Assembly: GCF_000003815.2 (NCBI RefSeq)
Contig: NC_049983.1
Span: 22,346,809 to 22,410,808 of the forward strand
Length of the DNA stretch: 64,000 nucleotides
Source: Branchiostoma floridae
Taxonomy: Eukaryota > Chordata > Leptocardii > Amphioxiformes > Branchiostomatidae
Reading direction: 5' to 3'
The position numbers were made by a program, and so were the translations under genes. Position 1 is the first letter of the stretch. The number at the start of each line of letters is the position of its first letter. Below, piece by piece: positions 26,105 to 62,934 of the stretch. The notes below the pieces were generated by a model that saw nothing but the letters and a program-made list of their open reading frames with translations, did not search any database and was not told where the DNA came from.

Positions 26105-26284
26105 TTAACAGTTCCAGGTCCTCTGGTATGGCGTACACACGAGCACCAGCCTTTCTGGCTGTGGAGATGGCAACCTCTCACCGGGATCAGTTTCCACCAT
26201 TTCAGCTGTAGTTGATCATGGAAGATGCTGAGAGATGTCTCCTTCCCTGCGTTTTCCCACTGCGTTTTCAATCGTCGTATAAGT
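26105..26284 (-). CDS. Gene 1 last exon / shared exon module (WENAGKETSLS..)
   Basis: TTTCTCACAG precedes 26284, and GTAAGTAA follows 26105. In the gene 1 phase it adds YLYDD and stops (TGA ending 26268), the rest being 3' untranslated with AATAAA at 26006-26011. In another frame it is open from end to end: LIRRLKTQWENAGKETSLS, IFHDQLQLKWWKLIPV, then a Cys/His-rich stretch. That second frame is phase-compatible with the MAQTGPD frame of exon 28769-28862. A copy at 62.03-62.19 kb on the plus strand is about nine-tenths identical by eye. Confidence 0.45.
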
Positions 26285-29200
26285 CTGTGAGAAAAACACA
26301 TTCAATTCTTAATACATTTTATGTTGTACATCTCATACAGTGTAAAACAGATACTGGCTGGTCAAATTAAAAAAAAACACAAGCCCCTGGGAATTAAAAG
26401 GCTGCTGATATATTAATCAGCTTATAGTCAAAACTAGTACGAGTTCCACAACCCAATACATTACCAGGATACATCGTTTGTACATTTGAAAAGGTAATAA
26501 AATCATTTGGCGATTTTAATCAATTTGATGATTGTCAGTTGGGTACCATCCAGATAGTAGTTCGCTCCAATGTTTATATTACACTTCTATATACAGTCAC
26601 TTCTCTGCTATTCCTGGACATCACTTACGTCTGGAATGATCTAAATTTTGGACAAGGGTGCTGATTGGTAATATCACATGAGCGAATCCAAGCGTTCGTT
26701 GGAACAGGCGTTCCAACTCAAAACGCCCTCCGTTTGATTGCAGGAGGGTCTGTTTTCATCGAATGAGTGTTGTAGAACCCATTCCTTAAACCCTGTTTAA
26801 CTGATGCCATCACCGAAAGGTTTGAATGTGCACTTCCCCAAACGGATAGCAGAAGCGACCATAGCAGCGAACTACTACCCGGATGGTACCCAGGCTTCAG
26901 TTGATGATCTTGTTCACCCAAAAAGACATCAGTTGGTGTTAAGTTTGGACCACGACGTGTGACCTTAGCAAAGAAGGCTATAATTATAGTATTTTGTTAT
27001 CATGTATGCAAATGAGGACCTAATTTGCATCCTCTGAGTTAAATGGATAGCTAACTGTTAGATGACCGGGGGTTGGGGGGGGGGGGTGGCATGCGGATTA
27101 AGGCAGGCAAGCCAAACCAGCCTTAAAGGCCTCTGCTGACGGGGCCTGGGCAGTATGCCCCGGTAGTCTGTTCCACTCGACAACCGTGCGAGGGAAAAAA
27201 GAAAATTTGAAACAGTCTCTTTTAGCCGTGATTAACTGGTATTTAAACATGTGACTTCCTGTGGTTCTGCGTTGGGCTGGTTTGAGGTACTGGGTTGAAG
27301 GTATCTACCTCCACCATCACAATAAACCCACCTGGGCACCTACCATTAAAAAAAACTGCAATCCATCCAGCAGTTCTTGACTCAGAGATTGTATTGATTT
27401 ATTATCCCATACATCATCCAAACCCCAAACAATACCTTCCTTCACCTCATGGAGGGTAGCCTGATTTAATCTTGCTTATAGCAGCCTACCCAACATCCGC
27501 GGGTCTGCCTAAACACCACAAATGACCACAAACAACCACAAGCGACCACAAACGACTCTAATATGCATTGTATATGGGGCAACGACGTTTTCTACGCTCT
27601 GGAGACATTGTTTATACATTTATGAACTAAAAAAATGCAGCAAGTCCCGAGTACTGCGCTACGCGTGGGACCCCATAGCGCAGTGGGACCATGTTCACCC
27701 CGTGACCGAGAGGTTGCGGATTCGAATCCGACTGCCGTGTTATCGATCTTGTGTCCTTGGGAAAGGCACTTTACACGACTTTACTCAGGTGAAATTGAGT
27801 AGTACCTAGCTTCGGCTAAGGCCGTCCCTCGGATAGGACGTTAAATGGAGGTCCTGTGTCTGGGGAGAGCCATACCCCAGGCACGTTAAAGAACCCGCCA
27901 CACGTGGGATGGTGCGGTGTGAGTGGTACAGTACCTACAGTACCTTGGCCGCACCTGGGGCAATTACTGTCGTATTGAGGTCACCTGAGTGGCGCCAAAT
28001 GGCAGCTCGCTCCAGACACTTGCAACAATAGTATTGAGGTCACCTGAGTGGCGCCTAAATGGCAGCTCGCTCCAGACCCTTGCGATTCAGCCCCGCCTAT
28101 TGTAAGTTCCTCGCAATTCAGCCCCTGGCTGCAAAGAGTGAGTAGTCGGCCCACCCAATAACAATCATAGCAGTACTCACCAGTTATTTCGAGTTAGTCC
28201 AGTTTCAAGATTAAAGCAATTCTTGGCCACCATTTTCGATCAAGCTTGCTTTGATTTGAGGCTGAAAAGACTTTGTATCAGTAACAAGTTTTATAAGTTG
28301 GCAATGATAGAATTGCGGTATGCTATAATCTATGAACAGCTTCCATAGTTTTATCGCCCTGTCGTCTATGGAACCAAGGAAGGTATCGAGAACTTCCCCA
28401 TGCAGACTCCTAGCACGGACGATCCAACATGACGGCAAAGACTTGCTTCAATCTTGAAACCAGCGGACTAACTCGCAATAACTGGTGAGTATGCAGGAGT
28501 TGCTGCGTTTCTTTAATTCATAAATGTATAAACCATGTCCCCAGTGCGTCACACAAGGTCGTTACCCCATATACACTGCTTATTAGAGTCGTTTGTGGTT
28601 GTCTGTGGTCGTTTGTGGTGTTCAGGTAGACCGACATCCGCTGGCCTCCCAACTCAGGTGGGGAGCAGCCTATTAGTTTAACACAGCCCAGACAGCAGAA
28701 TTTGTGTCACACAGGCTATACAAAAGGAAAGGTCTGGCGAAAGTAATCAGTAGAAAGATTTCACTTACAGCGGTGGGGTGGCTGTCCTCGTGTGGGCCTT
28801 CCTGATCTTCTCGGGCCCCCGTTCATCTGGGCCAGTCTGTGCCATCTTGCATTCCTGTGGTTCTATAGTGTAGAAAGAATGCATCAATGAAAATTTCAAA
28901 CGTGAATCGACATCAATCAAAATTTCAAACATGGCAGTCAGTAATGGCATGGGATTACACACACATACATACACAGGCCAAACCAATTTTATTTGTTGTT
29001 TCTTGGATTTTTTCAGAAAAAAATTGGGTCGGTCAGTCGAAAAAAAAAAACTTTTGCAAAAAAGTCAGGGGTAGGAGAGATCGAGGGGTTTACTCAAGTT
29101 ACAGTTAATTTAGGGGGTCCCTGGTAGCAAAGTCCAAAGTTTGAAGAAAAATAATAAACGTACCGTCCAAAATAGGCACATACAGCTACTGGAATTTGAG

Positions 29201-32200
29201 GCTCATAGTTAATTGAGAAAGGGGAGGCTGTGAAATTTTGTCAACATGAGGTGTGGCCATCAATTTGAATTTTTTTTTTTTTCCAAATCAGAAAAAATAG
29301 GGTCGGAAAATCTGAGAAACAACAAAATTGGTGCCACCACACAAACGTAAATACATGTAACGTTACACACGTTTCACAGTCACGTTCACTCACTTTATAC
29401 ACTCAAACACACTCACACATACATGTAAATGAGCACACGCACATGATACATGTCCACTGTGATACACAATACACGTATGCATGTAGGCATACCGGGTACA
29501 TGCAATACATACAAAATTATGTACGAGGGTGAGTCAGAAAGTAATGCAAGTGCTTTCATAACAGAGTCGGTCTTTGATGGAATGAGTTAAAATTTGGCAC
29601 AAAGGTAGAGACATATCTCATCTTGAGATTTAAATATCTAAATTTGTTGCTCATTATTTTATGAGTGACTGAGCTGCTTTCAATGTGACCACACCCTAGG
29701 TATCCCGTCAGACGAAAAGTGAGTCCCAATTAACGTACAATTAAGGATTTCCCTAAACCAATTTATGCTATTGTAGGAGACTAAGCCTGTACATGTAGTA
29801 AGCTGCATTTCTTTATAAGCCACATGCATAATTTCAACTCTGAAATACGAGAAGTTTTTCTTTTTTCGTTGCTGGTGTAGAGTGAGGTATACGCGGTCTT
29901 CAGGGTCATGAGATTCGCGGTGTGTTGATTAAAAGTATCTGTAGCCTTCTTTCCCATTAATAAAGAGAAATGAAACTTAGCACACTTTTTGGCCTTTAAA
30001 TAGTTAATAACTGCGTAAAGTTTCGTTTCTTTTGGTTAATGGAAAAGTAGTCTTTTAACCAGCAACTAACGAATTCGTGATTAAATCCAACAGCTCTATA
30101 ACACAACTAACTGCATCCTAGCAGCTGTAAATAAAGAACTATTACGAGTTTAGAAATGAAAATTGGCACGCAACCTATAGAGACATTTAGTATCATACAT
30201 GTATAATTTCAACCTCCTACAGTGATTTTCAGTGGGTCAGATTTAGAGGAATGAATAGTCTGACAAGCTACCAAGGGTATGTTTATCTTGAAATCAACTC
30301 TGTTGCTCGTAAAATGACAAAGACCAAATTTTAAAAGATCAATCTCAAGAGGACATATACCTCTACTTTTGTGCAAAATTTCAACTCAATTGATTAAAAA
30401 ACGAGTCTGGTATGAAATCACTTGCATTACTTTCTGACTCACCCTCGTACATTTATTGTAGGGCAGACATCACAGTTGAGTTGCACAGTAAAAGGCATGA
30501 AAACTTGATTCCATGGGACTAAATTCAATATTATTTATTAAGAGCCACCTAAAATCCTTGAACCTTTTGGCCCAATCTGGACACCAATAGATTCCATGAT
30601 GCAAGCAACTATTTTTTGGCCAAACCTTCTTTCATTTAAATGCTTGCATCAGTAACTGTTGTTTAATTAGGATGTCCTCCATATACTGTAAATGCATTTA
30701 AGTTCGCGGGGATTTAATTTCGCGGTAGCGGGAAAAAGGACTTTTCGCTATGGATTTAATTTCACGGTAACACCATAGACTGCAGTCTAATACCATAATA
30801 GAAAAATGTTTGCGGCATTTTTAAGTTTGCGGTGAAGCGGTCACCGCGAAAACCGAGAACATAAATCCACCGCGAACATTTCTGCATTTACAGTACTAGA
30901 AATCAAGTCAACATGGCCTAACAGGGCTAAATATACATTGTATTAAAAACTACTTACCCGGATGGGGCCTGGGGCTGCGTTGGCCTGTATGGGCAGAAAA
31001 TGATGCAATGTCACACATACAATCATTCTGTAATTTTGTTAGAGAAGTAGCCTGAGTACAATCCTGAAAGTAGTGCGCTGTGGCATTTAATTAGACACTA
31101 TATAAAGTGGTTTCTCACCCTGACATTTATCATACACTATATACAGTCGCTACTTGCTCTGACATTTATCATACACCATATACAGTCGCTTCTCTGCTGT
31201 TCCGTCTGGGATCCTTGGCCACGTTAACGTCTGGAATCGTCCAAATTGTTGACGAGGGTGCTGATTGGTCCCTACACATGAGCTCAGAGAGCTATAGAAT
31301 TTTTCCAATTTTTGCTTTGTTAATTGAAAGTATTTTTGCGTGTTCACTGTTCAATGTAATAGTACGACGTACATTTGTAGATTTTAAGACAGCTGTTAGG
31401 TGAGCTATTATCTGATTGTGTATCAGCCTTTTCCCTAGCCTGCTACCTCAGATCCCAATAACCTCAAAGAAAACCGTGAACACAAAACCTGTGACCGCAA
31501 ACATTTTCTATCCCTGTCCTTTTCTAGCGATGATCTCACGCTACATGTTTCCCTATCGAGAACCTTTCAGCATAACACTGGGTAACACTTACTCTAGCTC
31601 GCATTGTTATACCTTCCACAGCAACTGTACAGTTTCTTTCCTTGTACTGCCAAACTATTGCACAAGTCTCAATGTCAACTGTTTCCTCCTGTATACATGT
31701 TCAATCTTCAAGCCTTCAAAACCATAATGCTCACAGTCCCTTTAACTTCTTGCATGATAACCAATGACGTTATATAGAAATTCTTGCATTAGATTTAAGT
31801 TCATTGCCTAGAAGCGTGCAAAGACAACTTTGCTTCAAACAATCCCATTAAGATTGTATACCGTAGAGAGAAATGAACTGTATAAGGTTATACAAAACCA
31901 ATTTCCTTAGTTCATACGCCTAAGTTCTGTAGAATAAATTTGTATTCCTAGTAACATCTATTATCATAATACCGGTACGTTTACGACGATTTCTCTAGCC
32001 ATACTGATTTGACAAATTGTCAACGCATCATTTTCTCCAGTTACATGTTGCTGTTATAGGTTACCCTTGCCACTTCTTCTGTGTAACTTTTCTACCACTC
32101 TTGTCCTGCTAAAAGCGTAATATTGTAATTGTAACACGCCGCGGAATTACACGGCGAACGGGCGCGTGGTTGGGAGGGGGTACAAAATACCGGTAGGAAG

Positions 32201-35200
32201 AAACACGGCACAATTAACTGCCGCTATGTACATTTATACATCCTCTGATGTTCCTTCCTTTTCTGTCAGTAAATGCATAAAACATAAACCTGCATGAGCA
32301 TACAAAATGTCATGAGAAAACGGACGTATACTGTCAAGAATTTTCATTTAACTTCTGTCCGTCACAACCGATATGACGTAACACTTCACTGCTAGCGTAG
32401 ATATAAAAATGGCTGCGTACGTTCAATTTTGCCCATTCAGTCGTAGATCCGTGCTATTATGCAACAGTTCTTCACACTTTTACATGAGTTGTAGGTCACC
32501 AACAGAAATTCAAGATTGTTGTTGAATCATGTTCGTCTTGTGCCGTGAGCATGTGTAATTATGATCTATATATAAATATATAAATTTGGCAATGAATGTG
32601 ACAGTGTGTTCGTCCCACGACGAGCTGCCTACCCCGAAATTTAAAAAAAAGTATACTGAAAACTTTTGGGCTTGTTGTCTTCGAATGCATTGTTATCGAT
32701 GCTTTGTAAATGGTGTATTGGACACCTAGATGTCTGAAGTGTGCACAGCTCAGAAATAACTATTGTTGCATGTGTAGATCTCTTTAAGTTCCGGTATTTT
32801 TAATCTACCGGTATAAGTCTTACTACCGGTATTATGCCAATGCATGTTACAACTAGAGACAAATCACTGATCATAAAACATAATTTTTTTTTTATCTGCT
32901 CTTTTATTTTATTTTGGGTCCACTATAACAGAAAAGTGAGGAGAAAATGAATTTATCCAATGATAGTCTCATTTTGTATCAGATTCTATTAACGTTTAAC
33001 TGTTACATTATCTCTTCAACATCTCTCGTTGTGACCTGTACGTAGCCCGGTATGGCAAAGATGTGCAATAGAGGACTATATTCAATCAATCAATCGTTAA
33101 CAAAAGTTCAGTACTTACGGCGGCGTTGGCGGGCTGCTGGGCAACAACGGGCGGCACAATGGCAACGGGGATGGCAGGGTTAGGGGGAGCGGGGATGACA
33201 AAGGGCGCATGAGGGGCAACGGCGACGGGGTGGGGTGCAGGGTTGGCTTGGGGTTGAGCGTTTACAGGGTGGACGGCGGCGACAGGGATGACAGCGGCAA
33301 CAGGGGCCTGGACGGGCACGGGGGCTTGGACAGGCACGGGGGCTTGGACGGGCACGGGGGCTTGGACGTGCACGGGGGCTTGGACGGGCACGGGGGCCTG
33401 GACAGGCACGGGAGCTTGGACGTTCACGGGAGCTTGGACGGGCACGGGGGCCTGGACGTTGGGCTGCACAGGGGCAGGCACATGGGGTGGCACAGCGGCA
33501 GGCACAGGGGCAGGCACATGGGGTGGCACAGCGGCAGGCACATGGGGTGGCACAGCGGCAAGCACATGGGGTGGCACAGCGGCAGGCACATGGGGTGGCA
33601 CAGCGGCAGGCACAGCGACAGGCACAGGGGCTTGGACAATGGGCTGGACAGGGGCAGGCACAGGGGGTGGGACATTGGCTTGGATGGGGATGACAGGGGG
33701 CATGTTGCCATTGTTGCCGCCGTTGTTCCCAGCATTGGCGTTCCCGTTGGCATTGGCGTTTCCTCCCGCGTTAGCTGCAGCAATCAGGTTTGCTCCTCCG
33801 TTCGCTCCTCCGTTCGCTCCTCCGTTCGCTCCTCCGTTCGCTCCTCCGTTCGCTCCTCCGTTCGCTCCTCCGTTCGCTCCTCCGTTCGCTCCTCCGTTCG
33901 CTCCTCCGTTCGCTCCTCCGTTCGCTCCTCCGTTCGCTCCTCCGTTCGCTCCTCCGTTCGCTCCTCCGTTCGCTCCTCCGTTCGCTCCTCCGTTCGCTCC
34001 AGGAGCTGCACCGCCACCATTTCCTCCATTGAGGTTGAATGCGTTTAACACATTCATCAGGAAGAGCTGGACAGAAAATTGGTTTGATATTATAAAAGGT
34101 TCATAAGATTGTGCCATTTATACAAATTAATACACATTCAAACAGCTAATTTTCTTTACCTTTATGGACACATTTAATAGCCAAGATGGTTGATATTATA
34201 ACGGTACATAACAGTAACTACAGAGTAGCAGAACAATCAAACTCAGTTTTTGCCTATGGGGATCTAATTAAGGACCCCCAAAAAAGTGAGTAAGGTTTGA
34301 CGCCTCCAAATTTATAGCAGGGTGCAAAAGTAATTGACAACACTTATAATGTTGAGGAAACCAGGAAGTAGAGATGGGCGCTGGACCCGATGCATCTTCT
34401 GATCAAGGAGGTTAGCCCCCTTGTTCTGATGGATGGGCAACTTTAGCTTTTAGCTTTTAATAAAGATTGGCCTGGGCCACATTAATTTGGTTTTAAGGAT
34501 CATGACATCCTCATAATACCGGAAAACTGATGCAAACATGTGAGAAAGTAGAAGAAAAGATGCCTAAATGTCATTACCAATGCATTGCTTAGGGTACGGA
34601 CAAATACATCGAGCGTAAAACCCGTAAGGGGCGGTATAACCCGTCGTTGTGCGAACATGTATATAGGGCTCCCTTGGAAATCAGACAGTTACCACGTTAA
34701 GTCGTTAACTGAAGGGACTACCCTAAAGATCAATAAATAAATGAATAAATACTTACTATGATGTTCCTCAGCAAGTGGTTCTCCTGAAAAGAGAGACAAA
34801 ACATTTTATGTTAATTGAATTTTTAGATTACAGTCAAACTTGTCTAAGAAGACCATCCTGGGGACCCATGTAAAGTGGTCTTTTTAGATGTATATTATTT
34901 TGATTACTAGGTTTCCAATATTCTTTTCATGCCACCAAAAGTGAAAAAATTTCCCCACAAAACTAAGTACTGCATAAAGGTACCCTGTGTCAGACTTCCC
35001 AGACAGGACCAAGAGATTTATTTTAGGGGTATAGGTAAACAGATTTCTGAAATTTAGTAGTAAAATCATTCTTTATTCATAGTAAAGAAAGGTACACAGA
35101 GCCCAGGACACGATGGTCATTGCTGGCCAAACATGCAGGGGGACATAGGACATAGGACATAACATAGATAGTATTGCACAATGTGGGTATTGCTTATCAT

Positions 35201-38200
35201 TACTTTAAAAAACATTGTATTCAGTTTAGTTCGGTTTTAATTTGTCTAAATTTGATTTAAAATCACAACATTTCAGTCGTCAATAATGTCCATATAAATG
35301 CTCTACATTTCTCAGCCTTGTGGGTTTCTACATATACAATAGCGTTTCTGACTCCCAATACGGTTCGTGGCGTGAGTTCCAAATAGCGTATGACGACAAC
35401 AAGGCAATGCGGCTTATATCAGTAAACAGAGTCTTCGGTGGTTTAGCTTTAACTATTTTGAACAGCGTTCTAAGCCTGGTCTTGTTCTCTGGCGTGACGA
35501 GTCCCCTTGATCCGACTTCAAAGCAGGTTAGTGTAGCGGAAATGCCTACAGTTTTTAAATCTGCCGCTAGGGCGCTGTATTTATTCACCTTTCGGTCATG
35601 ACTTGCTTTGATGTTCTTTTCAAAGGGTACAGTCAGTTCGTGGATGTGGAGGGTCTTCTGTTCTGGCAAATAGATGACCAGGTCTGGTTTCTGGGTAGTG
35701 GGTATTGTATGGACCGGGATGGTACCTCCATTAGTTGTGTAACCTTTTATGTCCGCATAGATGGTGGCGTTGATCCGAGAGGGGTCAATGGACTCTATGA
35801 TGGTGTCTGTTATGTGCTTTAATACCGAGTTGTGTCTGAATGTGTATCGTCCTTGTTGGAGAGCGACACCGCAGTGGTTCAGAACGTGGTGAAGTGTTTC
35901 CCGGTTGCCACGCAGTTTACATTTGTCAGTGTTACGTTTTCCCCAGGTGGTCAGGTTACAGAGTGTGGGAAGGGCGTCGATGGAGGCACGCACAGCGAAA
36001 CTGAGGATGCCCTTCGGCAGGTTGTACATAGCGGACCGCCATGTCAGGTCGCATTTTTCTTCCTCAAGCAGTTGTAGCATCTGCCCTTGCTGTAGAAGGT
36101 TTTCCTGATGTTTACTCCAGACGTCATGACGCATATCTGTGACTTGTTGTTTGACATGTTTACGTACTGATGTCCATTCTGACTCCTTTGCTGTATGGAT
36201 GGCTTGTTGGTGGATGGTGTGACACTTTCCAATACCCCGTTTCTGCATTTTCCTTGTCCACTGCGATTCAAAGCGTGTTTTACCTTCTCATCGGCTTTTA
36301 GTACTGACCTACTGTAGGCCAGAGCGTGGGCTTCTAGGTACAAGTCTGAGATGCTTTTGAAGTTGAGACCCCTTGTGTTGTACAGGATGGCATTTGTGGC
36401 ACTAGTTTGCATTCTGAGCCATGTTTTGATCGCCTTTGTGTGGATAGAATCAAGTTTTTGTAACTGGGTGTCTGTCAGGTCGTGCATCATCAGCATGTAC
36501 CTCCAAGATGGGAAGGCATACTCCATGTATACTCTGAGCTTGTATTCGTTCCTTATCGCTGATTTGTTTATATTTTCAATAGTTGTTTCTATTGTCTTTG
36601 CTAGAATGTCATAGGTTTCTTTTGTTTTACTCAGGAAGGTTATGTAGCCACCTAAGAACTTCTCCGGTGCATCTTTGGTTGTTTTTACAGGGTCCCCGTC
36701 AATCGTAAAGCTGACGTCCGATGGCTTCCCACTCACAATGGACATAGATTTGCACTTACGCGGTTTCAGTTGTAGGTTCATCGACTTTGTGTTAGAAGAG
36801 ATTTGTGTTATGAGTTTCTGATGCTGTCTTTTGTTTGTGGTTATGAGGCAAAAGTCGTCTGCGAATGGGAGTGTGATGTAATACTTGTCATTAAGGTTGT
36901 AGCCGTGTTGCTGCTCTATTCCCTTGAGATGCTGTAGGATAGGCTGGAACACTGTTAGGAAGATGATGGGTGACAAGTTGTCTCCTTGGAACACTCCTCT
37001 TCCAAACGGGAAGGGATCACTTTCCCAGCCTGGGCCCTTCACTTTCCCTTTCAGGCGAGAGTACAGGTTTTTGATGTACGTGGTGATAATTGGCGGGAAG
37101 CCGTTTCTCTCCATCTGGTAGTAGATTAGTTCGTGTTCCACAGAACCAAAGGCATCCGCGAGGTCAAACCATGTAACGTGGACTGTACGGCGTTTTTTCT
37201 TGGCATGTGCTAATATCTCCCGCATAACTTGGACATGCTCCACACAGCCGTTGATTCCGGTCAGGAATGCCTTCTGCGTTTCTGGGTCTATCAGGTTATT
37301 GCAAGTCATGTACTTTGCCCATCGTTCGGAGAGTATTTGGTGGAATATCTTAGAGACGCAGGAAGTAAGGCAGATCATTCGAAAGTTTTCGGCAGCTTCT
37401 GGACTACCATCCTTGTGTAGAAGTGACACGTTACCGGATGACCATGATGTCGGTGGGTCTCCGGACTCGAGCAGTTTGGAGAACAGTGTACTAAGGAACA
37501 GGTGACAAGCTGGCAGGTGCTTGAGGTGGCCATACATGATCCCGTCCGGGCCAGGTGCGGATGTAGCGCATCGTTTGGATAAGACTGCCTTAATGTCTTT
37601 CGGCCTGACAGGTGACATGTCAAAAGAGTTACTGCTGGGTGCAGAACGACGCAAATGAATACAATGTCAGCAAAGGTTTTTGTTCAATCTTTTCTGAAAT
37701 CTAAATGTCAAAAATGTGCTGTTCGATATCTATTAAGTGCCTTAATGTACGGTATACACATTATCCAGGACCACCAGTGCACCCACACATGAGTGGAACT
37801 TGTATTCAACATAGTTAGCCCATTGTCATTGGAGTGGTATAAACACCCTGCAGCTGAAATCAATCTTTTTTAAAGTATCTCTACTTTGTCCTGTTCATAG
37901 CGTGCTTCATTAGCTCCTGTAGTTTTTGTTTAAAGTACTCCCATACTGGCCATATATATAGCGTTCATCATAGTAGTGAAAAATATAATTACATGTACAT
38001 GTAAGTCTTAACTTCAGTGTGATATATAGGCTTGTGAGGACATACTTACGGCCCTGAGTCGAACAATCTCAGCATCTCGCGTCTGTAAAGATAAGACATT
38101 GCGTTAACTTTGCCTTTTTTAACAGTAACGTCAATTTTACAAACATGTAACAACTGTACAGTATCAATCATACAATGGAAAAATTATGATCTACAACAAG

Positions 38201-41200
38201 TCGGTTTTGCAAACTGTAATATTAATGTAAACCTCATAAGACTTCAAGTGCGCTAGCATAAACAAACTAGAGACAAGCCCTTCTTGAGTTTAGCCCCTAG
38301 AGGGCTGAAAGGGCCAAAAAAAGGGCCAAAAGCTACACAATTTACTCTCCCCTTGAAGAGCTACATGTATCTAGCACTCAAAAATCATGTGCAATGGGTA
38401 GAGTGTTCGCCTTGCATTCAGTAGGTCCTGAGTTTGATCCACAGCCGAGTCATACCAAAGACTTTAAAAATGGTACATATTACTTTCTCTGATTAGCACT
38501 CAGCATTTGGGAAAGAGTATGGGAGTTAAACACACTACAGCAGCCCCTTGCTGTAGTGACTTAGACAAATGTGTTGCCCAAGGGCTACAGAAATGAAAAT
38601 GGGCACCACCCCTAAGCATCTTCACAGATGTACGGGCAGCTTTAACTTTTTAACTAACTCGAAAATCATGACCATAGCATGTCCAGAAGACACGGTATTA
38701 TAACTGGAAGTTCCATTGCAGTACCGTAAGACACTTCTAGGGGGCTTATAATCCAATCATGTCAAGCTATTATAAAGACCTATCCACAAATCAAATATCA
38801 AAACAATCCCTTCACTGAGTGGCATTCTCTATGTTTCTTGCAGACAGACATCTCCCTTGCAAACATAGAGCAGTATTACATAGCATTATTCTACCTCTAT
38901 TCTAGAGGTTTAAAGGGCAGATATACGAAGCTTAGAGCATGCCAAAAAGCTGAGTTACTCAAGCAGCTGGATGTAATTTTGGAAACGGTCAGACGTTTTA
39001 ACTAGCACCTACTAGTTTTCGTAAGTGACTCTTAAGTTATCTGGAAGAAACTGGTCTTTTATACCCTAACTATGAATGAAGACAATATTACATGTCCAAT
39101 AGGAAGCATTATAAGACAAAGTCAAACTGAAGACAATTTGGATTCCAATAGAAAACAAAGCTAAGGCAAAGCTTAGGGCATTCTTCTCTCAGTCTCAGAC
39201 TATCCATGCAGTGTGCATTATTGTACAAAGAATTCGGTGGAAAGTGAAATACATTACATCTATCAATGACAAACACAGAATACACAGTTTTCAGCATCTA
39301 AGAAACTCATAACAGCTATTTCAGTACCTTGGACAGACACCTGGCCAAGTTTGAAGGTGCATTAAAGATTTAACTTTAAGTACCGTGTGTTGCTGAAAAT
39401 CAGAGCAAAAGACTCCTAAACTCAACACCTGAAATTAATGCTGTCATTGCAGAGTTCTTGGAAGCAATCGAACATTCTGTTGACCAAAGAAGGAATCGAG
39501 TTCCCCATACATACTTAACACAAACGATCCAATGTGGCTGCCAGAAATTGTTGGGATTTTGAAACCAGCTGAATAACTACATATGACTGGGAGTACATGG
39601 GACTAGCTGCTTTTTTGGTTGTTGCTCAATGTACACTGCATATTAGAGTCGTTCAAGGTTGGTTGAGGTCATTTGAGGTTGTTTATCCAAATATTCACAA
39701 ATTTGTACATTTAAAGCTTGTAGGAGTACACACTAATGGGGAGAGGTCATGTATGAACCTGCTTTTGATGACTGGGAGTATATATGACAAAAAAAACTGG
39801 AAAGGGGAGAACAAGGCACACCTTGAAATCTTTCTGAAAATCATACATCGCCTAAAAGTTCTGAATGGCAAATGGCTACTTTCAGACGTGCTAAGACACG
39901 CACAGATTCCCAACCAGGGTTGTCATTATACCCCACTCACATTAGGCGAAAATCGATCGGACGACGAGTCTGCGAGCTCTAAATTACAAGTAGGCATGAC
40001 CCTGACAGGAAGGGGGGAACTCTGCCATTTCTTCGTCGGCAGCAGGGTCATGCCTCCTTGTAATCCAGAGCTAGCAGACTCGTCGTCCGATCAATTTTCG
40101 CCTAATGTCAGGGGGGTATCAGGACATCTCGCCTAGATTCGCTTGTTGGGCCAGAAAAAAAACTTTACCACATCCAACCCCAAAATCTGACCTTCATGAC
40201 ATACAACTGTTGAAAATGTATGTTTATATTAGCTCAGAATGACAAGGGCTCCCAAACAATGAGTAGGAAGGAAAAAGAATCAAAGCTGGAGACAACCCTG
40301 TACAATGCAACATAGCAAAACTGAAAGCTGTCGCCTATACAGCTTTCTCACGCGGCGGCCATGGTAGATCTAAATGAGTTCAATGGGGCAAACAAAAGAC
40401 TGTCCATCATAATTAGTTCAACCAATGATAGCGTGGAATTAGAAAATTGACCAATAAGAGAATGGCTGCATGTCCGTCAAATATTTGCATTATTATGATT
40501 TTATTTTGCATCTCTTAAGGGACTATGGGATCAGTAGGCGAGTCTAGATTGCTACATATTTTGCTGCATAACACTGGTTTAACATTTATTATTTAATCTT
40601 ATATTGTGAAAATTTGTGTGGTCTGGGGACAAACTAAATGGGAGCTGATTTTAGAACTACGATTCGCCTTATTGACCTTCAATCTATGATGGCCGCCACG
40701 TGAGAAAGGTGTATAGAAAGTGTCAGACCACAGGGTTGCATTTACATAGGGCTGGGAACATACTTCTACCATGGAGGTGGCATACAGGAAATTGTAAAAA
40801 TTACTGTTGTCCAATACATGGGGCCATGTCTCCACAGTTAAGTTGGACGACAAAATCAATGGAGACCATACAAAATTTGAGTGGTATTGTGTTTGTATTA
40901 AATAGAGATACAATCTAATCACCAAATTGGAAAGTAGTCAAGCAATTAAAGACAATTATCTGCTCACTCACACTACACACCAAGATATTGAAGCTACATA
41001 GTTGTTTGATCAAATAGAACAACTTGGAAAACACAGCCAAGACATCTCGCATCACAGTAATTTTTGGGAAATACTGGCGTGGATAACTTATATACTCGAG
41101 TAGGAATCTTGACTGACTGTATTGCAGATCACACCCCCATTATTTCCCAGCAATCCAGGACTACAACAAACTGTACATGAACTCATTCCCAAAAGACCCA

Positions 41201-43031
41201 AACAGACTCCATACTTACTTCCACCTGGCCAGAGCCTCGTTGAGACTACCCGTGGTGCCAAGAGTACGACATCATTGGATACTGACACAATGTTAAGTTA
41301 AGTACCAACACATAAATCAAATGCCTACGATCATAGGAACACTACTAGACTAAGTGTATCTCAACTTTGGAACATCTGGGATGGCCCACCCTTCATGACA
41401 GAAGAAAGCAGGTACCCTTAACTCTTTTCTTGAAAGCCACCAATGGTCTAGTAGCCATACCCAATTTTCAGCACTAAGGACAGGGGCCATTTTTCTCAAC
41501 ATCACCATTTCCATTCTAAATATTAAAATTCAATAGACAGTAAAATTTATATGAATAGAAAAAAAATTTAACATCTAAGGGCTTGACATCCCTATTTCCC
41601 TTCGTACTATTTGTACTTAGATTCTAAGTCTAACATGGGGTTCTCGAATCAAACTGTCAAGTTCAATCTCGTTTGCAGGAGCAGACAGAGATGGTGGAAT
41701 TGATTCTGCAGCACAGCGATAGGTGAGAAGCATGGGGAACTATGTCAGCCATTGTAGCTGATATCTAGCCCAATGGTGTACTGCCCTGCACAAGGCAGTG
41801 GACTGGGATGTCCACCATTAATACGACTCCGTACCCATCTGCAAAGCTCTGAACAACAAACTCCCACCCTACATGCACCAGATGTTTGCTAACTGCCGAG
41901 ATCAAAGCAAAAGAACAACCAGGCAAAGGACAAACAATCAACTTGCTGTCCCAAAACTTCAACAAGAAACCTTCAGGATTAAGAGCCATCGCCTACCATG
42001 GACACAACATCTGGAACAGCCTACCACCAGACATACAAATGTATGCACAGCCCCAACTCTGGCTTCCTTTAAGACACTTCAAGACACAAGTAACGGGAAG
42101 GACCAAAATGAACGGACTTGAATCATGTAGCAGCTCTCACTGTTATGTTTTTTGTACTATGTATGTAAAAATTGTGTATATAGACTTGTATATCTATGCA
42201 GCCCACCTGTGGTAGACCCAAGAATACGTGATATAGACTTATGTGGACAGAAACTGTGCCATACTACTGTCACAATTGATGAAATTACTTATACAATATA
42301 CTTCAAAATCAGCGTATAGAAATTTGTACAAACACTAACAAATTAACAACTGCAGTTTTTGCAAATTGTACTGCATTTTGCACTATGGTCAAAAACTTTT
42401 TTAAACAGTGCGAAAGTTGATGCACACGCGAATGTAATCCATATACATTGTGTAATCAGATCAACAAAGATTGGCTTTATGTGAAAATAGGCTGGATTGA
42501 TTCAATGTGGCTTAATGACTGCAGCTAGGTCAGGTTGGCTATATTATGTGGTTAGCAGGCCAGGGTTGAGCATACTTGGAATGAAATTAGTTTAGACTGA
42601 AGGTTTTTCTGGACCAGTCCAACAATAAAAAAAAACTGACCCCTAACTCATACTAATCTGGCACCAAATGGCTACCTTATCTGACTGAAGGTTAAGGTCA
42701 AAAGCATTAGGGAGGGGGCAAGCTATGTAAAAATAAGGGAACTATAATAAGCAAAATAGCTCCTGATTTGCATGATTTGTATTTCATCGCTGTTTCCATT
42801 TATAGGCAGTAAGAAAATTTTCGTAGGCAGTAAGAAAATTTGGGGTTGTAGGAAGCTGGATCCTAACATCTGCTTTATGTCAAACTACATTTTAGCAAAG
42901 GGATCAGTTATCCTGCGGTGTAAGCTGATTCGCTATGGAACTCTGTATGCTGATTGGCCAATATAGTCAGTTCAATACGATATCCTGCAAGCTGATTGGC
43001 TATTTCCTAGCTCGCCCTGCCCGAACTGTTT

Positions 43032-43062
<31 letters not shown>

Positions 43063-46000
43063 TTTTGCACAATCATTAAAAAAGTTAACATAAAACAAAT
43101 TAAAGGATGAAAGTACATGCAGGGGGGAAGAAAAAGCCTCGTGGCTTGTACAAAGTCTTCCTCCAAAGTAACAAGATTGAATAGACGTGAAAAATTATAC
43201 ATTAGACAATAATGTAACCAAAAGAATTATATCTCATTACAAAATGGGAATAAATCATAATAGTTCAATAAATATTAACTAATGCAATATNNNNNNNNNN
43301 NNNNNNNNNNNNNNNNNNNNNNNNNNNNNNNNNNNNNNNNNNNNNNNNNNNNNNNNNNNNNNNNNNNNNNNNNNNNNNNNNNNNNNNNNNAATGGGAGAT
43401 TAATTAAATGTTTGATTATCTAATAATGACTTTTTTAACAGGTTTTTGAAGATGGATGGTGAATGACTAAGATGTAAGGTTTCATTTAAACTATTCCAGA
43501 TTTGCGGACACCTGAACAGCATGGAAAACTTTCTTTGTTGTGTTTTACTTGTATCTGTTTAAATGGTTAGACTGTCTGGTATGGTACTGATGGTGGTCTG
43601 AATTGTGATGGAAAAGGTTCTGGAATTGCTTTGGTATACAAGAACTATTAATTGTTTTGTGAACAAAAAGGCAACTTTGCAGTTTATTTATATCATATAT
43701 AGTTAATACTTTTAAATTACGAAACAAAGATGCAGAAGGGAATGTATACGACACATTTGAGACTATTCGAACGAAGCGTTTCTGCAGAAGAAGTAGAGGT
43801 TCAGGGCACCATGACCTAACTAGAGTAACGTTAGAGGCTATAAAAGCCAGTGTGGTACCACTTTCTTGTCAACCTGATGAAGACTTTTGAATAAAGGTTG
43901 AAACTGGTAATCGTTGTGTCTCAGCCATCATCCTTTAGCCCCCTTTACAAATCAAGAATTTAGCTTGGCCGAGTTGTCAGCGAGCTCTAAATTACGAGGA
44001 GGTATGACCCTGATGCCCACAAACAAATGGCAGAGTTTCTTTGTCGGCATCAGGGTCATATCCCCTCGTAATTTAGAGCTCGCTGACAACTCGGCCGAGC
44101 TAAATTATTGATTTGTAAAGGGGGCTTTTTGACGCCTTATCGACTAAGCAAAGAGATCATTTGTAGCTGCAAACACAACAACCACAATACTCCTTCTGGA
44201 AGTGACCCTCCCTCCTGGAGTAACTAAGACACAGTTTTTACTGATATCTGTGGAGATGTCGGGAGAGATCTGGAACATTGGCTGTGGGACACCCATGGCA
44301 CTTGTAGTCATACACAGTTATATAGCCTAGTGAGCCCGCGCTATATGCTAATGAGCCCTCCCGAAGTCGGGACGCATCTACACGCACCCGGAAGTGGTCG
44401 GGGACCCCTGCTAAGCTATCAGGCGAATGCTCCGGACCTTTCGGGAGAAATTCTGCCGATATCTCTATGGCGATATTGCAGTTCCATCTAGATGCTGAAA
44501 AAAAGCTGTTGGCGAGAGGTTGTCGGCTTGCAGATATCGGGAAAAACTGTGTCTACATGTAGATCGTGCCTTAGTGGGGTGGTTGCCTCAGACAGTGGGT
44601 ACAATGGTAACAAGAACTATCGAACACCTCAAAAATCATGGCAATCCATCCAATGGTTGTTCACACAGGTTTACTTAAAACATAGAAATCAAACACTTCC
44701 TAAAGTACCATGATCAGCCACCAGGAGGCCAAAAAGTGCGTCACCAAGATCAGGGTCACAACACCTGACCATGTTAGAAATATCATCGCAACCCATCCAC
44801 AGGTTCTTAAGTTATTCGCTGAACACACAAACATCCACAAAACAAACAACCCTGTAGATCCACAACAAATAGCTAGAAAGCCGAAATTCACACTAAATAA
44901 GTATACATATTATACAACTACCCAGCACATAAAAAGCAACACCTCAGCAAGTTCAGGTACAAAGATATAACACAAACGTGTTACTGCAGTACCAAGGTCA
45001 ACCAACAGGGGGCCCGAAATCAAACTGCACCATCACCTTCCCCACACCAACCCACCTACCGAAAACCATTGCAAACCTTATAGCAGTTCTTGAGATATAC
45101 CCCACACAATCACCAGAGTTTAAACAGTATGGCAACAATACCTCCATCTTCATGGAGGTAAAAAAATACACTGTATTTGGTTATTGCTTGTCCTATTGCC
45201 ATATACTGTCAAAAAATGACATACAAATGTAGCATATGATAACATTACACACAAAGCACAGTACTGTTGTCAATCATCTGCACATTAGGCCATGTTGATT
45301 TGATTGTACGGATGACATCTTCTAGTACTTCTAGTAACCCAAAAACTGATGTGAGCATGCGCAGAAAAAAAGTTTAACAAAAAAAAGTTGCCTTCACAAT
45401 GAAATCTAAGTGGCCAGGAAGGTTGAAGAAATGACAGAACACATAGAATATAGTATACCAAACAATACCCATTCTTCATTTTTGTTGTTTCACATGGAAT
45501 ATTCTATGACATATTAAGTATATGTTTCCTGATATTTGTCATCTATTTTGAAGCTGCGTTTTATGATTTATAGTGTGGTAGAAAACTTTTTTTTCAATTT
45601 TTGGAAACAGTGAAAAATTGATGCGCGGGGAGATGTCATCCATATAATCAAATCAACATGACCTTATACACCTTAAAACAATCAAAGAATGATGGAGCAC
45701 ACAGTAGTCATTAAAACATTAAAAGAACTCTCCTAAAAAACTGACATTACATTATTTTTTTGTACAATATGCACATTAAAACAGGAAAGGGGTCACACAC
45801 AATGTAATTTCAAGCTTCTTATAATGTGTGTATAATACATCATTGAGTAATTTGAAGTCTGCCTGTACTAGTTGTATAATTTGTATGTAATTCATCTGAC
45901 TTGCCCATATTGAATGTCCAGGATGTATCCACAAAGTTCTATTAATTTAAGTTCTTTCAATGACCAATGGTTGACGATCACACGTTTCTTACAAACAGGG

Positions 46001-46746
46001 CTGTCTTCAAGATTGCTGGGATGCATATATCTTAGACTTTCTTCCCATTGGTTCCCAAAATGTGAACTTCATGACATAGCATTGTGTACTTTTGTGAGCT
46101 TCAAAGGGCAAATGTTACAATGGCAATCAACACATGAGTGTGAAGGAAAAACATTTTCAGCCAGTGCTTTAGGCTAACGTCACATTTCCAAACCGAAGCC
46201 CGGCCAGGTGTTTGTGAAAACAAAAAATAGAAATGCATTGTAAATACGTGTTTGAGAAATATACATTAAAAAATGCCCATGACTATCCTCTTTGCATCTT
46301 GTGTAGTTTGGTGTGTTTCATATCATACATTTCATTCCCTTAGCCTGGCCGGATCTAGTTTGGAAATGTGACGCAAGCCTTACCAAGGAAACAGTGTTAA
46401 TAAAGGTGAACTCTCACTGCACTTGCGTCAAGCTTGCATCACTGCAGGGTTCGTTCACTGCAACACTGTTTTGTTATTTTCTCTGATTTTTTATAATTTA
46501 GACATTGTGTAATACGTTGAAATATGACTTAAAAGACGACAAAATACACAAAAAGTAAGAGAATTTGTTCTTCATCTCTGAATTTTGTTGAGTATCTTTC
46601 AAACCCTGCAGTAGCGCTAGCGTGACGCAAGTGAAATACCACCTTAAAGTACCAACTAGAAGTTTATCAAATGAATGTCAGCTTACCACAATCTCATGTG
46701 CCACCAAAATTGCGACAGGGGGAACTTGACCTCCTTGTTGCGCCAT
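26268..46746 (-). CDS. Gene 1: low-complexity GGAN/VQAP repeat protein (spliced model)
   Basis: Joined on the minus strand from 46746-46687, 38082-38050, 34783-34757, 34066-33119, 30984-30958, 28862-28769 and 26284-26268, the coding sequence is 1206 nt, 401 residues plus TGA. The first five introns fall between codons. The last is after the first base of a codon and still closes exactly on a stop. Each junction has GT..AG, four donors being GTAAGT. The protein has a 43-residue leader with leucine/isoleucine heptads (TRDAEIVRLRA, ENHLLRNII, then LFLMNVLNAF). About 18 Gly-Gly-Ala-Asn repeats follow, then an Asn/Gly/Ala linker, PPHVPAAV and VQAPVP repeats, and an arginine-rich end (GGPRRSGRPTRGQ). 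No signal peptide or catalytic domain is seen. The composition suggests a disordered, possibly self-associating or RNA-binding protein; this is inference. The family is not recognised. Confidence 0.6.
26540..26891. mobile_element. 352-bp MITE with TGGGTACCATCC termini
   Basis: The left end is TGGGTACCATCCAGATAGTA. The right end, read on the minus strand, is TGGGTACCATCCGGGTAGTA. Both continue with GTTCGCT. Partial copies lie at 11.44 kb (hairpin), 31.14-31.29 kb (internal part), 49.56-49.65 kb and 50.64-50.70 kb. No protein frame inside. Confidence 0.75.
27068..27088 (+). repeat. G-rich tract
   Basis: GGGGGTT followed by about 12 G and TGG. The runs would allow a four-stranded G structure; formation is inferred only. 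Confidence 0.6.
27098..27460 (-). mobile_element. CR1/L2-type LINE, 3' end of ORF2 (remnant)
   Basis: The minus strand encodes YLKPAQRRTTGSHMFKYQL, then FKFSFFPRTVVEWNRLP and SAEAFKAGLACLP before a TAA at 27098-27100. The FPRT...WNxLP and FKxxL pattern is the standard C-terminus of CR1/L2/Jockey-like reverse transcriptase proteins. A frameshift separates this from an upstream piece with SLSQELLDGLQ. The copy is truncated on both sides and inactive. Confidence 0.75.
27480..27612 (-). repeat. Inverted copy of the GTCGTTTGTGG element
   Basis: Read on the minus strand it has TATAAACAATGTCTCCAGAG, AACGTCGTTGCCCCATA, ACAATGCATATTAGAGTCG, TTTGTGGTCGCTTGTGG and GGTGTTTAGGCAGACCC. These match 28523-28650 on the plus strand, so the pair brackets a 1-kb interval. 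Confidence 0.65.
27664..28150 (+). mobile_element. SINE with TTAAATGGAGG domain plus 54-bp tail duplication
   Basis: The A-box-like ATAGCGCAGTGGGACC and the B box GGATTCGAATCC precede CTTGGGAAAGGCACTTTACAC, CTCAGGTGAAATTGAGTAG, GGACGTTAAATGGAGG, GGGGAGAGCC and GTTAAAGAACCCGCCACAC. The end contains a tandem duplication of GTATTGAGGTCACCTGAGTG..CGCTCCAGAC (27974 and 28031). The family is that of 18415-18735. Confidence 0.75.
28165..28495. mobile_element. About 330-bp MITE with 45-bp terminal inverted repeats
   Basis: The left end reads TACTCACCAGTTATTTCGAG..TTTCAAGATTAAAGCAA. The right end, read on the minus strand, gives TACTCACCAGTTATTGCGAG..TTTCAAGATTGAAGCAA. A related right half occurs at 39440-39600, followed by the same GTCGTTTG block, so the two modules travel together. 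Confidence 0.7.
28523..28690 (+). repeat. GTCGTTTGTGG element, plus copy
   Basis: It contains TATAAACCATGTCCCCAG, CAAGGTCGTTACCCCATATAC, CTTATTAGAGTCG and three GTCGTTTGTGGT/GTCTGTGG units. It is the inverted partner of 27480-27612. Confidence 0.65.
28769..28862 (-). CDS. Gene 1 exon: arginine/glycine-rich, two open frames
   Basis: CACTATAG precedes 28862 and GTAAGTG follows 28769 (94 nt). In the phase set by the upstream exons it encodes NHRNARWHRLAQ, then MNGGPRRSGRPTRGQ and PPHR. A second frame is also open: an internal ATG starts MAQTGPDERGPEKIRKAH and continues, in phase, into the 26105-26284 exon. The first frame gives an RG-type tail and a stop shortly after the next junction. The second would give a different protein from an internal promoter. 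Confidence 0.5.
28978..29338. mobile_element. About 360-bp MITE (CCAATTTTGTTGTTTCT termini)
   Basis: The left end is CCAATTTTATTTGTTGTTTC, then GGATTTTTTCAG and GGGTCGG. The right end, on the minus strand, is CCAATTTTGTTGTTTCTCAG, then ATTTTCCGACCC. Internal poly-A/T tracts and GAGATCGAGGGGTTTAC; no frame. Confidence 0.6.
29524..30447. mobile_element. Non-autonomous mariner-like element, 924 bp
   Basis: Ends CGAGGGTGAGTCAGAAAGTA in inverted orientation, flanked by TA at 29522-29523 and 30448-30449. The interior (GAATTCGTGA, GCAGCTGTAAATAAAGAAC, GCACGCAACCTATAGAGACA) matches the 13336-14258 copy read on the other strand. No transposase frame is present. Confidence 0.8.
30684..30895. mobile_element. 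212-bp MITE (TACTGTAAATGCA termini)
   Basis: The ends are TACTGTAAATGCATTTAAG and, on the minus strand, TACTGTAAATGCAGAAATG. Internal landmarks are TTAATTTCGCGGTAGCGGGA, CTTTTCGC, GACTGCAGTCTAATACCAT and CACCGCGAACATT. It is inserted within the CATCCATATAATCAA repeat (GATGTCCTCCATA to the left, AATCAAGTCAACATGGCC to the right). An equal-length copy sits at 47050-47261 on the other strand. Confidence 0.85.
30958..30984 (-). CDS. Gene 1 exon: 27-nt micro-exon
   Basis: TGCCCATACAG precedes 30984 and GTAAGTAG follows 30958. The nine codons ANAAPGPIR are phase 0 and echo the QPANAA at the end of the preceding exon, which suggests it arose by local duplication. Confidence 0.5.
31137..31290 (+). 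mobile_element. Internal fragment of the GGGTACC MITE
   Basis: TACAGTCGCTTCTCTGCTGT, CCGTCTGGGATCCTTGG, CCACGTTAACGTCTGGAAT and GACGAGGGTGCTGATTGG match the inside of 26540-26891. The termini are missing. Confidence 0.55.
31300..33110. other. Gene 1 intron sequence without recognised elements
   Basis: Several short frames are present without exon signals. ACCGGTA-containing motifs recur (31.97, 32.19 and 32.81 kb). A GTAGCCCGGTATGGCAAAG..AATCAATCAATC end near 33.05 kb looks like a LINE tail, but no coding remnant is attached. Confidence 0.35.
33119..34066 (-). CDS. Gene 1 exon: long repetitive exon (316 codons)
   Basis: TTTTCTGTCCAG precedes 34066 and GTAAGTAC follows 33119. After LFLMNVLNAFNLNGG the exon encodes about 18 perfect or near-perfect GGAN units from a 12-bp repeat (33792-34001). 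An AGGNANANGNANAG segment and PPV/VPA-rich sequence follow, with 24-bp units (PPHVPAAV) and 18-bp units (VQAPVP). The exon ends QQPANAA. The same frame also runs 17 codons upstream into the intron to an ATG at 34117, so an alternative start is possible. The other frames are open only because the repeat lacks stops. Confidence 0.7.
33285..33625 (-). repeat. 18-bp and 24-bp coding repeats (VQAPVP, PPHVPAAV)
   Basis: About ten units of GGGGCTTGGACGGGCAC (33300-33460) encode VQAPVP. Five units of ACATGGGGTGGCACAGCGGC (33480-33610) encode PPHVPAAV. They are less uniform than the adjacent 12-bp array and so probably older. Confidence 0.85.
33792..34001 (-). repeat. 12-bp coding tandem array (GGAN)n
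   Basis: GCTCCTCCGTTC (plus strand) is repeated about 17-18 times with no substitution visible over most of its length. At the protein level this is Gly-Gly-Ala-Asn. Such homogeneity implies recent expansion or ongoing slippage. Confidence 0.95.
34070..34750. other. Gene 1 intron with possible SINE tail
   Basis: GATGCATCTTCTGATCAAGG..TGATGGATGGGCAACTTTAGC (34388-34450) resembles the end of the SINE at 38385-38650 (CATCTTCACAGATGTACGGGCAGCTTTAAC). Nothing else is recognised. Confidence 0.35.
34757..34783 (-). CDS. Gene 1 exon: 27-nt micro-exon
   Basis: CTCTTTTCAG precedes 34783, GTAAGTATT follows 34757, and the nine codons are ENHLLRNII in phase 0. Together with TRDAEIVRLRA it gives a bZIP-like E.xxLRxEN.LL pattern, though no basic region precedes it. 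Confidence 0.55.
35328..36248 (-). pseudogene. LINE zinc knuckle and restriction-like endonuclease
   Basis: From 36248 the frame reads 306 residues to a stop. A CCHC-type knuckle is expected near residues 110-126, but the second cysteine is an arginine (C110, R113, H121, C126). The endonuclease follows: KPDLVIY near 187-193 and HIHELTVPFE near 201-210. These give the acidic residues of the PD..(D/E)xK fold (D189, E204). Loss of one zinc ligand is compatible with decay after insertion. Confidence 0.7.
36240..37654 (-). pseudogene. LINE reverse transcriptase domain (R2/Hero type)
   Basis: Counting from 37654, APGPDG is near residue 34, the first catalytic aspartate is in WFDLADAFGSVEH (D164), GVFQGDNLSP is near 220, and the catalytic FADD is at 264-267. 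FADD in place of YADD is common in the R2 group. The first codon is TTG with a TGA two codons before it on the upstream side, so there is no authentic start. After residue about 470 (NRSGQGK) the frame shifts; what follows in this frame to 36044 is out-of-frame translation. Confidence 0.75.
37670..38380. other. Gene 1 intron around the 33-nt exon
   Basis: Apart from the micro-exon at 38050-38082, no element is recognised. Confidence 0.35.
38050..38082 (-). CDS. Gene 1 exon: 33-nt micro-exon
   Basis: TATCTTTACAG precedes 38082, GTAAGTATG follows 38050, and the 11 codons are TRDAEIVRLRA in phase 0. The isoleucine and leucine spacing continues the heptad pattern of the preceding exon (HEIV). 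Confidence 0.55.
38385..38655 (+). mobile_element. SINE, second family (GTGCAATGGGTAGAG head)
   Basis: GCAATGGGTAGAGTGTTCGCC (A box) and CCTGAGTTTGATCC (B box, 38427-38440) are spaced as in a tRNA head. The body includes AGCACTCAGCATTTGGGAAAG, CCCTTGCTGTAGTGACTTAG, TGTGTTGCCCAAGGGCTAC and ends GGGCAGCTTTAACTTTTTAAC. Confidence 0.65.
38940..39145 (-). repeat. Dispersed repeat, inverted copy of 22970-23190
   Basis: CTGAGTTACTCAAGCAGCTG, TTGGAAACGGTCAGACG, AACTGGTCTTTTATACCC and TGAATGAAGACAATATT match the reverse complement of the 22.97 kb copy. Confidence 0.6.
39440..39700 (+). repeat. Diverged copy of the 28.4-28.65 kb module
   Basis: AATCGAGTTCCCCATACA, AACGATCCAATGTGGC, GATTTTGAAACCAGCTGA, TGACTGGGAGTACAT, TGTACACTGCATATTAGAGTCG and GAGGTCATTTGAGGTTG follow the same order as at 28375-28610. 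Confidence 0.6.
39924..40125. mobile_element. Foldback (hairpin) element A, 200 bp
   Basis: Arms of about 80 bp: ACATTAGGCGAAAATCGATC, GGACGACGAGTCTGCGAGCTC and ATTACAAGTAGGCATGACCC, with the exact or near-exact complement to the right. The loop contains AACTCTGCCATTTCTTCGTC. The core CGAGCTCTAAATTAC, GCATGACCCTGA and the loop are shared with the element at 43937-44126, but the outer arms differ. Confidence 0.8.
40315..40735. mobile_element. About 420-bp MITE (CTTTCTCACGCGGCGGCC termini)
   Basis: The left end is CTATACAGCTTTCTCACGCG then GCGGCCATGGTAGAT. The right end, on the minus strand, is CTATACACCTTTCTCACGTG then GCGGCCATCATAGAT. No frame; the interior is AT-rich. Confidence 0.7.
40740..41760. 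other. Gene 1 intron, no recognised element
   Basis: Frames of up to 108 codons cross the neighbouring MITE but have no domain or exon signal. Confidence 0.35.
41770..42125 (+). mobile_element. LINE ORF2 C-terminal remnant
   Basis: KALNNKLPPYMHQMFANC and TTRQRTNNQLAVPKLQQETF in one frame, then after a shift RAIAYHGHNIWNSLPPDIQ and LRHFKTQV. The TR....L..P...TF..R...YxG..WNSLP pattern is the usual end of CR1/L2/RTE-X-like proteins. Antisense to gene 1; inactive. Confidence 0.7.
42770..42845 (+). repeat. Short direct duplication GTAGGCAGTAAGAAAATTT
   Basis: The 18-19 base unit occurs twice in a row near 42805-42842. Confidence 0.6.
43028..43755 (-). mobile_element. LINE 3' end with poly-A tail, interrupted by assembly gap
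   Basis: On the minus strand the coding remnant reads FRNLKVLTIYDINKLQSCL, FVHKTINSSCIPKQF and YHTRQSNHLNR, then after a frameshift MLFRCPQIWNSLNETLHL and FKNLLKKSLL. After the gap comes a 3' untranslated region (CACGAGGCTTTTTCTTCCCC) and an AAATAAATAAA..A tail at 43030-43060. The poly-A end marks LINE-type target-primed insertion. Confidence 0.75.
43291..43390. other. Assembly gap (100 N)
   Basis: Exactly 100 N inside the LINE 3' region. Confidence 0.98.
43937..44126. mobile_element. Foldback (hairpin) element B, 190 bp
   Basis: Arms AGCCCCCTTTACAAATCA, TTTAGCTTGGCCGAGTTGTC, AGCGAGCTCTAAATTACGAG and GAGGTATGACCCTGATGCC pair with the right side almost without mismatch. The loop contains AATGGCAGAGTTTCTTTGTC, close to that of element A. 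Confidence 0.8.
44228..44556. mobile_element. About 330-bp MITE (AGACACAGTTTTT termini)
   Basis: AAGACACAGTTTTTACTGAT, TATCTG at the left, and on the minus strand TAGACACAGTTTTTCCCGAT, ATCTGC at the right. GATGTCGGGAG and CTCCCGA blocks inside also pair. No frame. Confidence 0.65.
44605..45172 (+). repeat. 560-bp dispersed repeat, copy 1
   Basis: AACTATCGAACACCTCAAAA, TCATGGCAATCCATCCAATGG, CAGCCACCAGGAGGCCAAAA, AGTGCGTCACCAAGATCAGG, CAACAGGGGGCCCGAAATC and TACCTCCATCTTCATGGAGG occur in that order. The reverse complement of 53245-53795 has the same order. An open frame (HQEAKKCVTKIRV..TTPDHVRNIIATHP) is also open in the other copy (HQEAKKCTTTFTT..TTPNRVTNLIATHP). Confidence 0.75.
45175..46165. 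other. Gene 1 intron, two copies of the CATCCATATAATC repeat
   Basis: Copies lie at 45.29-45.40 kb (minus) and 45.60-45.67 kb (plus). A plus-strand frame of 87 codons (45914-46177) has no domain or splice context. No exon is supported. Confidence 0.4.
46171..46380. mobile_element. 210-bp MITE (AGGCT..CGTCACATTTCC termini)
   Basis: AGGCTAACGTCACATTTCC, AAACC and CCGGCCAGG at the left. On the minus strand AGGCTTGCGTCACATTTCC, AAACT and CCGGCCAGG at the right. No frame. Confidence 0.75.
46403..46645. mobile_element. 243-bp MITE (CACTTGCGTCA termini)
   Basis: Ends AAGGTGAACTCTCACTGCAC, TTGCGTCA and, on the minus strand, AAGGTGGTATTTCACTTGCG, TCACGC. It is separated from the 46171-46380 MITE by only 22 bases. 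A second copy (from 51503) is split by the LINE at 51611-53139. Confidence 0.75.
46687..46746 (-). CDS. Gene 1 exon: start codon exon (20 codons)
   Basis: ATGGCGCAACAAGGAGG begins at 46746 with GAAG in front and G at +4, a good initiation context. The exon reads MAQQGGQVPPVAILVAHEIV and ends at 46687 against GTAAGC in phase 0. An AG directly before the ATG could be a 3' splice site, which would place the transcription start farther upstream, for example at the exon near 48.6 kb. Confidence 0.55.
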
Positions 46747-62929: not shown

Positions 62930-62934
62930 GCTGT

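Follow-up and report, generated by a model that had tools for sequence, protein, structure and literature searches.

A candidate spliced gene for a low-complexity repeat protein with a predicted leucine zipper in Branchiostoma floridae

We describe a candidate protein-coding gene, read from the minus strand, in a 64,000-nucleotide stretch of DNA from Branchiostoma floridae (hereafter the window), which would encode a protein of approximately 400 residues with a leucine zipper, repeat spacers and an arginine-rich tail. Exons 1-6 are well supported and a seventh is possible. Taken as a whole, this reading has in our view an even chance of being correct. The sequence, splice signals, heptad register and composition reported below are direct observations, and the functional steps built on them are worded conditionally.

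Gene layout and splice signals

Seven exons lie on the minus strand, bounded exactly as an earlier sequence-only reading had placed them (Table 1). The open join to a stop after 402 codons claimed in that reading was borne out, the joined exons amounting to 1206 nt, or 401 codons and a TGA stop. All six introns (8604, 3266, 690, 2134, 2095 and 2484 nt in order) begin with GT and finish with AG, with GTAAGT at five donors and GTAAGC at the remaining one. In order, the junctions have phases 0, 0, 0, 0, 0 and 1; exon 6 is 94 nt in length and closes in phase 1, so that the phase-0 organization claimed earlier applies to five of the six junctions and breaks down at the end of exon 6. The start codon, with A at -3 and G at +4, is the first ATG downstream of an in-frame stop and opens a leader whose residues 1-20 are MAQQGGQVPPVAILVAHEIV. 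At the other end of the protein, the Y of YLYDD spans the exon 6/exon 7 junction region. GC content exceeds that of both 100-nt flanks in each of exons 1-6, most strikingly in exon 5, and the GC of exon 3 (0.44) is ordinary when set against the GC windows, 42% of which attain the same value.

Several repeats and mobile elements share the window with these exons. Intron 2 holds reverse-transcriptase open reading frames of non-LTR type, and one of two inverted copies of approximately 927 bp, which are probably a DNA transposon, sits inside intron 5.

Table 1. Features of the candidate gene and of its surroundings in the window (flank values are GC; ranks are by splice matrix; penalties are those of the masked gene finder)
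Feature	Position	Strand	Observations
Exon 1: start codon and residues 1-20	46687..46746	-	donor GTAAGC in top 0.65%; GC 0.52 vs flanks 0.35, 0.41; picked at 6/6 penalties
Exon 2: 33-nt micro-exon TRDAEIVRLRA	38050..38082	-	rank 4/2426; GC 0.58, reached by 3.7% of GC windows
Exon 3: 27-nt micro-exon ENHLLRNII	34757..34783	-	rank 2/2426; acceptor in top 0.03%; heptad register
Exon 4 (948 nt): zipper end, GGAN array, Pro/Val/Gln/Ala repeats	33119..34066	-	GC 0.67 vs flanks 0.27, 0.40
Exon 5: 27-nt micro-exon ANAAPGPIR	30958..30984	-	rank 1/2426; GC 0.78, reached by 0.04% of GC windows
Exon 6 (94 nt): arginine-rich tail, phase-1 end	28769..28862	-	GC 0.62 vs flanks 0.35, 0.40; start picked at 6/6 penalties
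Exon 7, coding part (uncertain): YDD and stop	26268..26284	-	17 nt; acceptor in top 0.65%
Probable 3' untranslated block or dispersed repeat (173 bp)	26091..26263	-	starts four bases past proposed stop
Second copy of the 173-bp block	62028-62199	+	92% identity, 1-nt gap; starts at acceptor-like CAG
AATAAA	26011
Non-LTR-type reverse-transcriptase ORFs	35328-37666	-	RVT_1, E 3.4e-27
Two more retroelement fragments	49691-50779 (-), 51602-53128 (+)		RVT_1 and DUF6451 matches
Inverted copies of ~927 bp	29520-30446 and 13336-14262		91% identity; internal inverted ends of ~190 bp
Large imperfect tandem array	8287-10384		units of about 38, 75 and 136 bp; long open stretches on both strands
Tandem array	54120-54655		43-bp unit, 12.5 copies
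Long imperfect palindrome	62313-63082		self-complementary at 72%

Support for the exon chain and its ending

Splice sites were scored with a generic matrix whose frequencies were not fitted to this DNA. By this measure the micro-exons 5, 3 and 2 rank first, second and fourth among the 2426 open minus-strand candidates of 9-60 nt. Combining the matrix with a GC term gave a toy gene finder, which was run at six intron penalties with retroelement and repeat stretches masked, both masks and penalties having been set after the locus had been seen. At every penalty the masked gene finder retained the first five exons together with the exon-6 start; at penalties 16 and 18 it returned exactly that chain with no extras and the ending CK*, and at penalties 10 to 14 it added three to four exons and placed exon 6 in a different frame. 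Exon 2, picked at all six penalties with masking, was lost without it. Unmasked runs at penalties 10 and 13 kept exons 1, 3, 4 and 5 (exon 5 in a different frame), inserted pieces of the reverse-transcriptase element and dropped exon 6 together with exon 2, and at penalty 16 exons 3, 4 and 5 were kept and the start fell inside this element.

Exons 1-6 of the earlier gene model stand, and its last exon is uncertain: exon 7 with the claimed ending was not singled out by the masked gene finder, which chose YLYDD* at none of the six penalties and took the exon-7 acceptor at four, in other frames. The best-surviving alternative is concerned with the ending only, is compatible with the remainder of our preferred explanation, and falls somewhat short of an even chance; it holds that the same gene has a different C-terminus, reached in one of two ways. 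If the last splice is not made, exon 6 reads through to a stop at 28761 (PPHRCK*), and this run-on ending was taken at two of the six penalties. Otherwise, an acceptor 8 nt inside exon 6 would lead into an ending of 89 residues, in a frame which is open across exons 6 and 7 and which the gene finder adopted at two of the six penalties by inserting a 22-nt exon. Against the second route, the inner acceptor is weak (score 2.0 versus 7.1), and the 89-residue frame is broken by the 1-nt gap in the 62-kb copy of the block that follows the proposed stop. The block itself is probably untranslated, perhaps as a shared untranslated exon, or else a dispersed repeat.

A more radical alternative is that there is no spliced gene at this locus, and that the exons reflect a stop-poor, GC-rich minisatellite with splice-like flanks arising by chance, or a single-exon open reading frame at 34117-33086 (343 aa). 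This open reading frame starts with ATG, and chains of exons can be fitted freely to shuffled DNA. When seven-exon chains were scored with no final stop required of them, six of the 12 shuffled versions of the span attained the total of the claimed chain (101.1), the best chains of all 12 ranging from 92.4 to 109.9, and the best scores on the plus strand and on the reversed sequence were 100.1 and 101.4; the best free chain of the real minus strand scored 113.3, exceeding all 12 shuffles. A plain consensus scan of the window found seven open micro-exon candidates on the minus strand and nine on the plus strand, with a mean of 3.05 in 20 shuffles; there is no excess of minus over plus strand, and thus the scan does not separate the micro-exons from noise. 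Under the splice matrix, 7% of 200 shuffled versions of the span contained at least three candidates at the threshold set by the micro-exons, and its plus strand yielded one. Given the free chains and the lack of excess in the consensus scan, we rejected the fit of junctions and phases as proof of a gene.

The openness of exon 4 was likewise rejected as proof of coding when taken alone. Its frame 0 is free of stops, and none of 2000 Markov sequences of equal composition stays open, but long open runs also occur in other frames of exon 4, on either strand. Evidence against the absence of a gene comes instead from the GC edges at the splice sites, from a heptad register that continues through non-repeat sequence and from anchored shuffles, in which exons 1, 4 and 6 were fixed and the rest was shuffled. 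The real score was reached by none of 60 optima at penalty 16 (165.8 versus a shuffle mean of 148.7, sd 2.4) and by none of 60 at penalty 18 (155.8 versus a mean of 145.0, sd 1.1), and three micro-exons were present in 2/60 and 0/60 of these shuffles, respectively. Because of these anchored results we regard exons 1-6 as more than chance and probably a gene, and the absence of any spliced gene as unlikely. The earlier judgement that an accidental fit would be improbable thus fails for junctions and phases alone and stands when the long and outer exons are used as anchors.

No relative was found in Pfam, the PDB or the viral, phage, bacterial and archaeal sequences searched, a result that weighs against our preferred reading and in favour of there being no gene. 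Pfam gave no hit to the joined protein (E up to 0.1) or, with E raised to 10, to the leader or tail, and the C-terminus in the shifted frame gave one weak match (E 0.15) under the cut-off of the family. Matches in the PDB to the leader (one, E 1.1) and to the shifted C-terminus (two, E about 0.7) were taken as noise, and the tail had no match there. Pattern searches returned 37 stretches in viral contigs and 263 in bacterial and archaeal genomes, none of which was confirmed; in phage records neither exon 4, for which the low-complexity filter could conceal a match, nor the 173-bp block was matched. The family thus goes as unrecognised in Pfam, the PDB and these viral and prokaryotic sequences as it had by eye, but such negatives say little because the libraries are not expected to hold relatives of an animal orphan gene. 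Scans of the window for RNA families and tRNAs were empty. A literature search with printed strings of the protein returned a malaria-antigen peptide of similar composition and otherwise items that look unrelated, and the matches listed included no amphioxus, lancelet or Branchiostoma protein of such a micro-exon, leucine-zipper or low-complexity type.

Architecture of the predicted protein

A single heptad register runs through the leader joined from exons 1-4, with I19, I26, N33, I40 and L47 at a positions and V15, R22, L29, L36, L43 and F50 at d positions, of which R22 is unfavourable for a zipper. A simple heptad score was attained by 3.0% of 23,214 length-matched pseudo-micro-exon pairs; with length left free, 1.4% of 40,000 random pairs attained it, as did 7.4% of the 20,000 permutations made within exons, and at these rates support for the register is modest. 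The leucine-zipper-like leader noted in the sequence-only reading holds up to this extent, and we predict that residues from about 15 to 50 form a parallel leucine zipper, a prediction that shares the even standing of the explanation to which it belongs.

The low-complexity architecture described earlier also stands. A Gly/Asn/Ala segment of 109 residues (net charge 0) and a Pro/Val/Gln/Ala segment of 204 residues (net +1) together make up 313 of the 401 residues. Exon 4 carries the GGAN array as 17 identical 12-nt copies, the identity of which indicates that the array is young and probably length-polymorphic. Across eight units of VQAPVP type, codon positions 1 and 2 show one variable column each and codon position 3 shows three; these changes are too few for a synonymous bias among the repeats to prove selection, and we treat the pattern as suggestive only. 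The predominance of repeats could point to a secreted or structural protein of matrix type, neither nuclear nor cytosolic, in which the repeats would do the work and the zipper would serve for assembly, but this is improbable given that no signal sequence is seen by eye at the N-terminus and that the arginine-rich tail was judged untypical of matrix proteins.

The tail has 8 Arg in 36 residues and a net charge of +6, and the whole protein lacks K. It is arginine-rich and basic and not, as had been proposed, RG-rich, the 401 residues containing one RG and no RGG; the suggestion of RNA binding, which was based on an RG-rich tail, loses that basis, and RNA is a possible target of the tail only as an unsupported candidate. 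The tail may resemble the ends of some retroelement integrases, a likeness to which we gave no weight.

For the preferred reading of a zipper-led protein we infer a mechanism in which the zipper, given its a/d pattern and the general rules of coiled coils, would dimerise the protein. A flexible spacer of Gly/Asn/Ala repeats would follow, then a stiffer one of Pro/Val/Gln/Ala repeats and finally the short arginine-rich tail, so placed that a dimer would display a pair of basic tails at the ends of long, unstructured arms. The paired tails would then bind an acidic partner, either nucleic acid or protein, with avidity.

The lengths of exons 2, 3 and 5 are all divisible by three and the junctions on both sides of each are in phase 0, so that any of them could be skipped without a frameshift. 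Skipping of exon 2 (11 residues) would remove about three helical turns, and skipping of exon 3 (9 residues) would rotate the halves of the hydrophobic stripe apart. By extension, tissue-specific splicing could decide if, and in what manner, a lineage-restricted repeat protein associates with itself, a reading that we consider very unlikely. If expressed, the gene would represent an orphan repeat protein with a dimerising helix built from in-register micro-exons, a clean test case for the control of self-association by splicing and, in its 17 x 12-nt array, a coding minisatellite that probably varies in length. Failing that, it would join the many low-complexity orphan genes that annotation readily overlooks or calls wrongly.

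Comparison with known systems

RGG-box proteins carry multiple RG or RGG motifs, and bZIP factors carry a basic, DNA-binding region that leads straight into the zipper. The predicted protein shares with RGG/RG RNA-binding proteins an arginine-rich basic tail beside low-complexity sequence, and membership of the RGG-box class was rejected on the RG and RGG counts given above. With bZIP leucine zippers it shares the heptad pattern, in which Leu occupies three of the six d positions and Asn one of the a positions; it differs in having no basic region ahead of the zipper, long repeat spacers behind it and no Pfam match, and a bZIP transcription factor was rejected on the sequence of residues 1-20 (MAQQGGQVPPVAILVAHEIV) and the absence of any Pfam family.

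In microexons that depend on SRRM3/4, a UGC element lies a short way upstream of the acceptor. The in-frame exons of 27-33 nt described here resemble the regulated neural microexons of the SRRM3/4 or eMIC programme in size and frame. Exon 5 has TGC at -11 and -23, whereas exons 2 and 3 differ from that programme in having no TGC within the 40 nt upstream.

Finally, the locus can be likened, by description, to the schistosome MEG, defined as a gene that consists chiefly of exons of 3-81 bp (PMC10526429). Measured against that definition, five of the seven coding exons are no longer than 81 nt, yet exons 4 and 6 (948 + 94) account for 1042 of the 1273 listed coding and stop bases, which places the locus outside the class. 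Here there is instead a central exon of 948 nt, and no secretion signal is seen by eye, MEG products being secreted with a signal sequence. What the two share, as described for the schistosome genes (PMC10526429), is a pattern of very short exons amid long introns and variable products of low complexity.
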